A DNA stretch of 64,000 bases from Rugosimonospora africana (GTDB lineage: Bacteria; Actinomycetota; Actinomycetes; Mycobacteriales; Micromonosporaceae), in the NCBI RefSeq assembly GCF_016862975.1, contig NZ_BONZ01000013.1, forward strand, positions 434,001 to 498,000, given 5' to 3'. The notes beneath the pieces are model-generated. The model had not been told where the DNA came from. It saw only the letters and a list, made by a program, of their open reading frames with translations, and did not search any database. A program made the position numbers and the translations under genes. Positions 13,268 through 16,494 of the stretch are shown piece by piece. Within the stretch, counting starts at the first letter, position 1. The number at the start of each line of letters is the position of its first letter.

Positions 13268-13325
13268 CCGGCTGACATGAGCGCGTGGCCACAAGATCGG
13301 AGACGAGATCGAGACTGCTGAAAAG

Positions 13326-13364
13326 CGAAGCGGCGACCAGGAGCTTTCACTGGTCACCGCTTCG
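13326..13364 (-). terminator. duplicated copy of the tRNA-Phe terminator
   Basis: 15-base arms (13326-13340 and 13350-13364) around a 9-base loop. It equals the hairpin at 16362-16400 except for paired substitutions that keep the stem, plus one change that gives a G-U pair in the minus-strand RNA. It sits beside the truncated tRNA copy. Confidence 0.75.
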
Positions 13365-13382
13365 TTCAGCCCGGCGAAGAGC

Positions 13383-13428
13383 TGGTGGCCAGGGGCGGGG
13401 TCGAACCGCCGACCTTCCGCTTTTCAGG
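13383..13428 (-). other. attachment-site copy: 3' 46 bp of tRNA-Phe
   Basis: These 46 bases are identical to 16418-16463, which run from the encoded CCA through the T arm and variable loop into the anticodon loop of tRNA-Phe. Identity stops abruptly just past the anticodon. This is the expected core of an attL/attR pair left by a tyrosine integrase acting at the anticodon stem-loop. The piece cannot fold as a tRNA on its own. Confidence 0.85.
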
Positions 13429-14004: not shown

Positions 14005-14208
14005 TTACCTGCTTCGGGGGGAACCTCCGCCCGGCACGGCTCGCCTTTCCACGGCAGCGAGCAGAGCGGTGCCGATAAACGGACCTAGGTTGACAAGGTT
14101 CACGCCAAGCCTGCTAGCTGCAGTAGCAGCAAGGGTTACCGTCACCACGACTAGGATCACAACGACCCAACGCGCATGTGGCCTCTGGGACGCCCTGGCG
14201 TCGACCAA
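14005..14208 (-). CDS. small island membrane protein A
   Basis: 67 residues from a TTG. After a short basic start, residues ~14-35 (VVVILVVVTVTLAATAA) and ~38-54 (NLVNLGPFIGTALLAAV) form one or two membrane helices, ending in a basic tail. It resembles the second small protein at 14786-14989 in length, TTG start, the VTLAAT segment and a basic tail, suggesting an ancient duplication. Small hydrophobic proteins of this kind are common in actinomycete integrative elements, where some affect transfer spread; no such role is shown here. A palindrome precedes it and a hairpin follows it. Confidence 0.5.
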   Translation of the reverse strand: MVDARASQRPHARWVVVILVVVTVTLAATAASRLGVNLVNLGPFIGTALLAAVERRAVPGGGSPRSR

Positions 14209-14234: not shown

Positions 14235-14356
14235 TTCCTCCGGTAGCTCAAATGATGGATGACAGACCGGGTTGCAGACCGAGTCGTCCGTCATCTGTTG
14301 GACATCTCTAACAACGACGCTCGTGCTCGGGGGACGCGGGAACTTTTCGCATGCAA

Positions 14357-14785: not shown

Positions 14786-14989
14786 CTATCGGTGTCGCTT
14801 GGTCAGCCGGTCGATTGCGACGAGCACCGCCACGGCAAGGGTTACCGGCCGGCTAATCGTGGGCCACCGCCAGGCGAGCACGCCAATAGTGGCTGCCAAG
14901 GTCACCAAAGCAAGCCCGCGAACGGTGAGATCAGCCGTCTTGCGCGTGACCTCGTGGCTCCCTCGTCGGTGCCGGTCTACAGTTACCAA
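14786..14989 (-). CDS. small island membrane protein B
   Basis: 67 residues from a TTG with a good AGGAG six bases before it. A basic N-terminal segment is followed by a hydrophobic run (VRGLALVTLAATIGVLAWRW), a second run (PVTLAVAVLVAIDR) and the basic tail LTKRHR, so two membrane helices with both ends cytoplasmic are likely. It shares layout and the VTLAAT segment with the 14005-14208 protein. It is flanked by a strong hairpin terminator and an unusually structured 5' leader (15008-15080), which argues that it is a real, regulated gene. Function unknown. Confidence 0.6.
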   Translation of the reverse strand: MVTVDRHRRGSHEVTRKTADLTVRGLALVTLAATIGVLAWRWPTISRPVTLAVAVLVAIDRLTKRHR

Positions 14990-15007
14990 CGGGTTCTCCT
15001 ACTGCTA

Positions 15008-15080
15008 GGTGGGTGGACACGAGAACGGCATCCGGGGTGCACTCCCGGGTGCCGTTTTGGCACTGCCGTTCTCACCCACC
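15008..15080 (-). ncRNA. structured leader RNA candidate with two alternative folds
   Basis: In minus-strand sense the 73 bases fold as an outer stem GGTGGGT/ACCCACC (with a 6-base bulge) and a 10-bp stem GAGAACGGCA/TGCCGTTCTC. These enclose two small hairpins, GTGCC-AAAAC-GGCAC and CCGGG-AGTGCA-CCCGG, giving a three-way junction. A second copy of AACGGCA in the middle can instead pair with the same 3' strand, enclosing only the CCGGG hairpin. The element ends 9 bases before the ribosome site of small membrane protein B. An attenuator-like switch is an inference; a plasmid origin hairpin is the alternative. Confidence 0.5.
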
Positions 15081-15558
15081 ATGTTCTCAGCAACGACCTC
15101 ACGGACGGTCAGCGTCGTACGCTGGTGCGTAGGTAACGCAGCGTAATTTTGAACTCGTATTCGTTCGTCTTCGTTCGGGTTAGCTTGACGGCCATTCCAT
15201 TTGCACCAATTGGGCGTGGGGCACGTCACAGAACTTCTTGCGAGACGCTCCGTAAACCCGCGTCGTGCGCTGTGCGTCCAGACGGACGGCTACAGCCAGT
15301 AATGTGGCCTTCAGAACTGGGAGCCTACGACGGTCGCGATCTCGTTCGATGCGCATGCAGCTGGGCCGGCATTGCCGACGCGGGACCTGCTGGGCTATAC
15401 GGCCTTGATCTTCCTGATCTCGTGATCGTTGAAGGTGGAGTCCTCCTTCGGGAGCACCTACGGCGTCTTCGTGCGACCAGAGACGAGCGGTGTGCGGTGG
15501 TGACACTTGATGTAGTCGATGCCACTCGATCCATGAGTACGCTACCGGCCGCCTCTAT
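15081..15558. other. island stretch without a supportable gene
   Basis: About 480 bases with reduced GC near 15140-15180, including a TTCGTTCGTCTTCGTTCGGG direct repeat at about 15158-15178. Open frames on both strands show no motif, no ribosome site and no consistent codon use. Confidence 0.45.
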
Positions 15559-16059
15559 TCAGGCGCGGCGTTTCACCGACAGCCAGGCGGCGAGCTTGGG
15601 TACCAGCGACTCGACCAGCGCGGTGCCGAAGATGCACAGCGTCTGCCGCCAGGGATGGCCAAACGTGCCGACGGTCATGTCCTCGGTCAGGAAGATGTAG
15701 TAGTCCCCGTTGGGGAACACTTCCACCGGCCACTCCTGCTTGGGATGCAGCGCCTGTCGATGCGGCCAGAACCAGTGGCTGGGATGCTGCCAGTCGAGGA
15801 CCAGCAGACGCTGATCGGCCGAGAAGACCTCAGTCATCGCAAGCAGAGCCAGGGCGTTGAGCGCATCCTCACCGGCTGCGAACTGCGAACGCTGCCCAGC
15901 GAAGATCGGGCTCAAATCGATGGTTACCGAGCCGGGCGGCTCGTCGATCCCTGTCCCGTTCTCCCGCATCTTGGGTCGGAACCGGTACCGCGCATCGAAC
16001 AGCGCCCAGAAGTCATCGTCCCTCTCGCCTGGGATCGTTTCCCACGCCGCCTCTGTCAC
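15559..16059 (-). CDS. DUF2716 family protein
   Basis: About 166 residues from the GTG at 16059. Conserved stretches of this actinobacterial family are clear: FWALFDARYRFRP near the start, SVTIDLSPIF, LLVLDWQHPSHWFWPHRQ in the middle, and FPNGDYYIFLTEDMTVGTFG with HPWRQTLC near the end. The family has no assigned biochemical function; no signal or membrane helix is present. An ATG at 16128 is possible, but a hairpin at 16095-16114 would then be coding, so the shorter form is preferred. It is probably cargo of the tRNA-linked island. Confidence 0.75.
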   Translation of the reverse strand: MTEAAWETIPGERDDDFWALFDARYRFRPKMRENGTGIDEPPGSVTIDLSPIFAGQRSQFAAGEDALNALALLAMTEVFSADQRLLVLDWQHPSHWFWPHRQALHPKQEWPVEVFPNGDYYIFLTEDMTVGTFGHPWRQTLCIFGTALVESLVPKLAAWLSVKRRA

Positions 16060-16361
16060 CGCTGCACCGTAGCCGCCTGAAGGCCACATCGCACAGGCCG
16101 CTTCACTGCGGCCTCTTCTCGTTGGCATCCCACCTCCCTCTCGGGGCGGCCCCGATCGTCGATCTGGGAGTCGCCGGCCCCGCGCGGGTGCGTCGGCGAC
16201 CAGGCCACGAGGGCGGTGAAATACCGGTGAGACCGTAACCGGCGGCCGGGCCGATTAGCTGGACGACACGCGCGACGGAGGGTGAGACCCCGAGCCGGGG
16301 TGCAATTGAGACCAGAACCGAGACCACAAGATCACTTGGGTTTGTGATCTAGGTGAAAAAG
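16060..16361. other. non-coding gap at the right end of the island
   Basis: About 300 bases without a convincing gene. It contains one hairpin, AGGCCGC-TTCACT-GCGGCCT at 16095-16114, upstream of the DUF2716 start. It also contains repeated GAGACCA-type short words near 16310-16330 that recur near 13530, another hint of related element ends. Confidence 0.4.
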
Positions 16362-16400
16362 CGAAACGGTGACCAGGAGTCTTCACTGGTCACCGTTTCG
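16362..16400 (-). terminator. terminator of the tRNA cluster
   Basis: Perfect 15-bp arms (16362-16376 and 16386-16400) around a 9-base loop, followed in the minus-strand RNA by CTTTTT. A clear intrinsic terminator 17 bases after the tRNA-Phe CCA end. Confidence 0.9.
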
Positions 16401-16417
16401 TTCAGCCCGGCGAGAGC

Positions 16418-16494
16418 TGGTGGCCAGGGGCGGGGTCGAACCGCCGACCTTCCGCTTTTCAGGCGGACGCTCGTACCAACTGAGCTACCTGGCC
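16418..16494 (-). tRNA. tRNA-Phe (anticodon GAA)
   Basis: 77 bases including encoded CCA. The acceptor pairs GGCCAGG with CCTGGCC, the D arm reads AGCTCAGTTGGTA, the anticodon loop is CTGAAAA with GAA at 16458-16460 (read on the minus strand), and the T loop is TTCGACC. Its 3' 46 bases are duplicated at 13383-13428. Confidence 0.97.

Follow-up and report, generated by a model that had tools for sequence, protein, structure and literature searches.

What kind of element is the 73-base hairpin at 15008..15080 (minus strand), directly in front of a small membrane-protein gene, and does it occur beyond this locus? In the window, the whole 64-kb stretch of DNA analysed here, the gene behind it is an open reading frame (ORF) of 67 amino acids with a TTG start (14786..14989, minus strand). 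The first-pass annotation had proposed an attenuator or riboswitch design, with mutually exclusive pairings next to the start.

Fold and position of the element

The 73-base element proved to be real and is read on the minus strand. Its folding energy of -43.5 kcal/mol was far below the mean of shuffled sequences (-26.2 kcal/mol; z -4.9), and none of 200 dinucleotide shuffles was equally low. The plus strand folds likewise (z -5.2), because the element is near-palindromic. As annotated before, the minimum-energy fold is a three-way junction, built of an outer stem GGTGGGT/ACCCACC, a 10-bp stem GAGAACGGCA/TGCCGTTCTC and two inner hairpins. The position shortly before a ribosome site and a TTG codon was also confirmed: a Shine-Dalgarno sequence AGGAG is located at 14996..15000 (minus strand), and 18 bases separate the end of the hairpin from the TTG at 14989. 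This short gap leaves no room for a promoter, and a sigma-70 promoter-like site was not found between 14700 and 15560. From the missing promoter space we infer that the hairpin is transcribed within the mRNA. The sequence 3' of the stem, TAGCAGTAGG, lacks the U tract of a canonical intrinsic terminator; a terminator scan did not report the hairpin, whose stem is followed by no T-rich tail.

Within 15008..15080 the motif AACGGCA occurs twice and TGCCGTT once, and a capture of the 3' strand by the second AACGGCA copy can be drawn. The first-pass annotation had taken this alternative hairpin as a second state and had suggested a free-energy comparison. The alternative fold reached -38.5 kcal/mol against -43.5 kcal/mol for the junction, thus it is 5 kcal/mol weaker, and each of its seven pairs had an ensemble probability of at most 0.001, which is negligible at equilibrium. 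In a nascent-chain series the junction appeared once the 3' strand emerged. A near copy in the same genome (L002; 87 % identity over 61 bases) is diverged and partial: the 5' arm and the inner hairpin are retained, the 3' arm is lost, and the folding (z -1.44) was no better than that of ordinary sequence. The 5' arm that makes the junction is common only to the window and this copy, and as the latter lacks the 3' arm, the junction is unconserved even within its own genome. What is conserved is the simple hairpin 15022..15058 alone, not the junction. The proposed design by mutually exclusive pairing is consequently not supported, the two folds being neither comparable in stability nor conserved in the homologues.

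Homologous genes, covariation and the mobile island

The product of the 67-amino-acid ORF has a single hydropathy peak above 1.5 (maximum 1.89). No family in Pfam, PHROGs or NCBIfam matched it above cut-off, and it is not a DUF6232 protein. An initial tblastn-confirmed search of genome contigs yielded no relative; when 300 genomes of its bacterial family, which we take to be the Micromonosporaceae (with Paractinoplanes polyasparticus as a member), were searched by tblastn, 36 had matches at E <=0.01, many of them weak. An alignment of nine family members (A1) reached 19 loci at E <=1e-6, the window and 18 further homologues of the same bacterial family. Most homologue loci carry a GC-rich hairpin with the arms GGCACCCG/CGGGTGCC shortly upstream of the start, and in P. 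polyasparticus an ORF of 60 amino acids is preceded by a simple hairpin alike in sequence type. The exact-arm pattern, searched over all genome contigs, was present in nine contigs of mostly unrelated bacteria, so that matching arms by themselves count for little. Model R2, built without the window, recognised the hairpin CGGCACCCG..CGGGUGCCG directly ahead of the start at 11 of the 19 loci, of which 10 belong to its training set; eight loci had no model match.

In an alignment of 12 hairpins from loci of the window-protein type, comprising 12 pairs, 93.1 % of the cells were paired and five pairs had changed on both sides; the covariation score was 0.331, compared to 0.110 for shuffled alignments and at most 0.139 with slid partners. 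Thirty-one hairpins without the window were 93.3 % paired and presented two-sided compensatory changes in 8 of 12 pairs (score 0.371; shuffled alignments 0.128, slid partners 0.099 or less), one pair occurring in all four Watson-Crick types. The percentages are biased, since the hairpins were found through their pairing. The stronger point is the two-sided changes at aligned positions together with the core GGCAC/GUGCC, which is near-invariant while the outer pairs covary. A covariance search had been proposed in the first-pass annotation, with homologues lacking covariation as the counter-evidence; the simple hairpin does covary in the homologues. The underlying idea of a structured RNA leader in front of a small membrane-protein gene was supported as well, in that homologous genes in other genomes are preceded by this hairpin, with changes that compensate each other across the stem.

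The surroundings agree with the earlier placement of the element within a mobile island. A tRNA-Phe gene (16418..16494, minus strand) forms one boundary. The other is a duplicated 3' part of this tRNA with the downstream hairpin (13321..13428, strand unassigned), which matches 16357-16463 with 94 % identity over 108 bases. The approximately 3 kb in between contain a DUF2716 gene, the hairpin, the 67-amino-acid ORF and another ORF that is likewise small and hydrophobic; just left of 13321 lies what we take, from a motif recognized by eye, to be the C-terminus of a tyrosine recombinase. The DUF2716 gene region (15543-16106) has a 97 % identical copy on contig C103 of the same genome (L024). The second hydrophobic ORF (14005-14208, minus strand) has its own upstream hairpin at about 14240-14290 with the loop CTGCAA; it gave no R2 match at E <=5 and is not counted as a class member. 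Other origins of the element were rejected. For a genome repeat, a 91-base query returned only one further partial copy at low E; for a plasmid or phage element, neither the hairpin nor two related proteins gave a useful match; and viral contigs yielded neither a relative nor the hairpin pattern.

At six loci of one genus (L049-L052, L065, L073) the thyX promoter and first codons are copied just before the hairpin, and the hairpin-gene unit may have been mobilised together with this thyX fragment. Integration of the related elements beside an intact thyX was ruled out, the intact gene being located elsewhere in all six genomes. At two loci (L046, L047) the leader hairpin is preceded by the palindrome TGCACGTGCATATGCACGTGCA, a possible operator; a stretch resembling TGCACGTGCA likewise precedes the hairpin of L175.

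The leader hairpin class in the Micromonosporaceae

Covariance model R1 gave matches at E <=0.1 in 143 of 200 family genomes, a wide spread due in part to the generic nature of the stem. Ninety places among the best-scoring R1 matches were examined (30 given loci and 60 fetched) with a DUF6232 model built from our own sequences and not taken from Pfam. Within 360 bases, the 5' end of a DUF6232 gene faced the hairpin at 34 places and that of an A1 family gene at four; a DUF6232 3' end did so at a single place (L115), where a DUF6232 start faces the hairpin, too. The assignment to DUF6232 (PF19744), the commonest gene behind the hairpin, was confirmed for three proteins. Similar leaders precede other tiny hydrophobic ORFs (L106, L109, L120, L126, L158, L182). 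Two places (L119, L152) present the same hairpin type about 45 bases upstream of a larger gene, with a product of 449 amino acids at L119. The window's own genome has a class leader before a DUF6232 gene on G000:C93, which scored 29.4 bits with R1 and is outside the R1 training set.

The class core reads CGGCAC-C-CG, a loop that is usually Y-K-S-C-M-R, and CG-G-GUGCCG; the hairpin is located about 15-220 bases upstream of genes for DUF6232 proteins or for tiny membrane proteins, the latter from several families. This loop type, in either sense, was present in 38 of 39 DUF6232/A1 leaders, 12 of 51 other matches in the family and 2 of 25 outside it, a type defined after inspection of the data; the group of other small membrane genes in this comparison was chosen by eye. 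Although class members were partly selected with the model itself, the sequences argue for a class of leader hairpins that is distributed across many Micromonosporaceae genomes and precedes small membrane-protein genes. The converse search, starting from 90 DUF6232 genes, revealed a model match around the gene for 19, nine of them outside the training set, and none for 71; 30 of the 90 sources span about 1500 bases on either side, and the upstream position of the matches was checked by coordinates. Thus, the hairpin class marks only part of the DUF6232 genes.

The window hairpin can be assigned to this class as a diverged member. On the 64-kb window, the best R2 match was 15021..15059 on the minus strand (31.5 bits, E 2.5e-4); the plus strand scored 26.8 bits and the next unrelated place 18.5 bits. 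Through this match the hairpin has the CGGCAC core with its GUGCCG partner, and the gene that follows it closely encodes a small membrane protein and has a Shine-Dalgarno sequence. Its loop AGTGCA departs from Y-K-S-C-M-R, as does that of L154; because this loop type is usual and not strict, the assignment is to a diverged member. Relative to the class, the window hairpin has gained a 5' arm.

The leader hairpin family is apparently undescribed. Rfam gave no family other than tRNA at the gathering threshold in the window, and across 20 related loci the matches were confined to tRNA and a fortuitous one to mir-614 at E 3.8. A full-text search, which left out subscription papers and preprints, did not find DUF6232. 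No publication was found with both Micromonosporaceae and 'RNA motif', and broader searches, judged from their listings, yielded no description of the hairpin. In its conserved stem, its compensatory changes and its location in the 5' leaders of one gene class, the hairpin is like the structured cis-regulatory leader RNAs of Rfam and of the 104-motif study (PMC2864571); unlike these, it has no Rfam match. A ligand-binding riboswitch is unlikely, since the class shows one conserved stem only.

Possible modes of action

We favour, if only by a modest degree of confidence, a terminator-like leader hairpin in the mRNA of a small membrane protein that most likely acts by attenuation; hairpin, covariation, leader position, the missing promoter space in the short leaders and the likeness to terminator stems can be read from the sequences, whereas transcription, termination and any regulation are inferred. 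With a U-less, GC-rich stem of the terminator type inside the leader, only some transcripts would be extended into the gene, and the output would depend on a factor or condition altering hairpin formation or the release of RNA polymerase. The assignment of the stem to the terminator type comes from the R2 matches outside the bacterial family, which lie mostly at gene 3' ends: with genes called by a simple composition rule, 16 of 25 loci had a 3' end within 100 bases and nine a 5' end (3' end only 12, 5' end only five, both four, neither four). According to the 3'-end study of Streptomyces clavuligerus (PMC8269248), 353 highly structured 3' ends lack a U tract; such ends are discussed there as candidates for I-shaped terminators, and upstream of genes the study reports premature transcription units. 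Such actinomycete terminators share with the class hairpin the GC-rich stem, the short loop and the missing U tract; the class hairpin differs by its recurrent core and loop and by its place in front of small membrane-protein genes. Against attenuation stand the missing T-rich tail after the window hairpin, its off-type loop and the homologues and DUF6232 loci that gave no model match.

The main alternative, to which we give a clearly lower probability, is that a trans-acting protein or a small RNA sequence-specifically recognises the hairpin in the RNA and thereby governs how well a set of small membrane-protein mRNAs is translated or how stable they are. This reading explains better than attenuation why core and loop are constant. 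The stem AACGGCACCCG..CGGGTGCCGTT is identical in 24 DUF6232 leaders with differing flanks, the loop type is concentrated in the DUF6232/A1 leaders, and the core is nearly fixed despite the covarying outer pairs. However, the 24 leaders were found with a model of the same stem and are mostly from one genus, the loop type is post hoc, the candidate factor is only postulated and the window loop is off-type. Several of the DUF6232 leaders, among them L125, L107 and L116, have a further conserved stem between hairpin and start codon, GCGAGG..CCTCGC, which encloses GCGCCAATGGTGGC. As a tentative extension, a lineage-wide post-transcriptional regulon is conceivable, in which one trans-acting factor would bind the leaders of DUF6232 and of unrelated tiny membrane proteins and so co-control them; the island would have carried one such RNA-gene unit elsewhere.

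Equally doubtful as the recognition site is an unregulated role, either as a terminator or insulator that shields a small, recently moved gene from transcription from outside, or as a plain stabiliser of the 5' end of the mRNA. The close resemblance of the stem to hairpins by gene 3' ends in other actinomycetes is consistent with shielding, and several homologues adjoin a tRNA gene or the duplicated 5' fragment of thyX, places at which stray transcription can be expected. In its pure form, however, shielding needs a promoter between hairpin and gene, and several leaders leave less than 50 bases for this; moreover, most of the 24 DUF6232 leaders have a conserved operator- and promoter-like block upstream of the hairpin.

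The near-palindromic stem and a loop that occurs in either orientation to the gene mean that the element may have a role as DNA, and a double-stranded operator palindrome under repressor binding would explain both. We consider it improbable. The GGCACCCG half-sites are spaced by 6 to about 11 bases with the extra bases mostly paired in the stem, which favours a hairpin over an operator of fixed spacing; the outer bases vary as complementary pairs, and the site is next to the start codon and not over a visible promoter. Least of all do we expect a two-state switch in which the second AACGGCA copy takes the 3' strand and toggles expression: both folds can be drawn, but the energy gap and the pair probabilities, the junction forming at once in the nascent chain and the extra 5' arm shared only with a copy devoid of the 3' arm speak against it.

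With attenuation by a leader hairpin as the preferred reading, the odd hairpin of the window becomes a member of a recognisable class, and this class offers a testable case of U-less terminator stems before genes and not after them. Hardly any small membrane protein of actinomycetes has been characterised, and Pfam lists DUF6232 without a function. A shared RNA leader would provide a direct handle on when these small membrane proteins are made and how they are linked.
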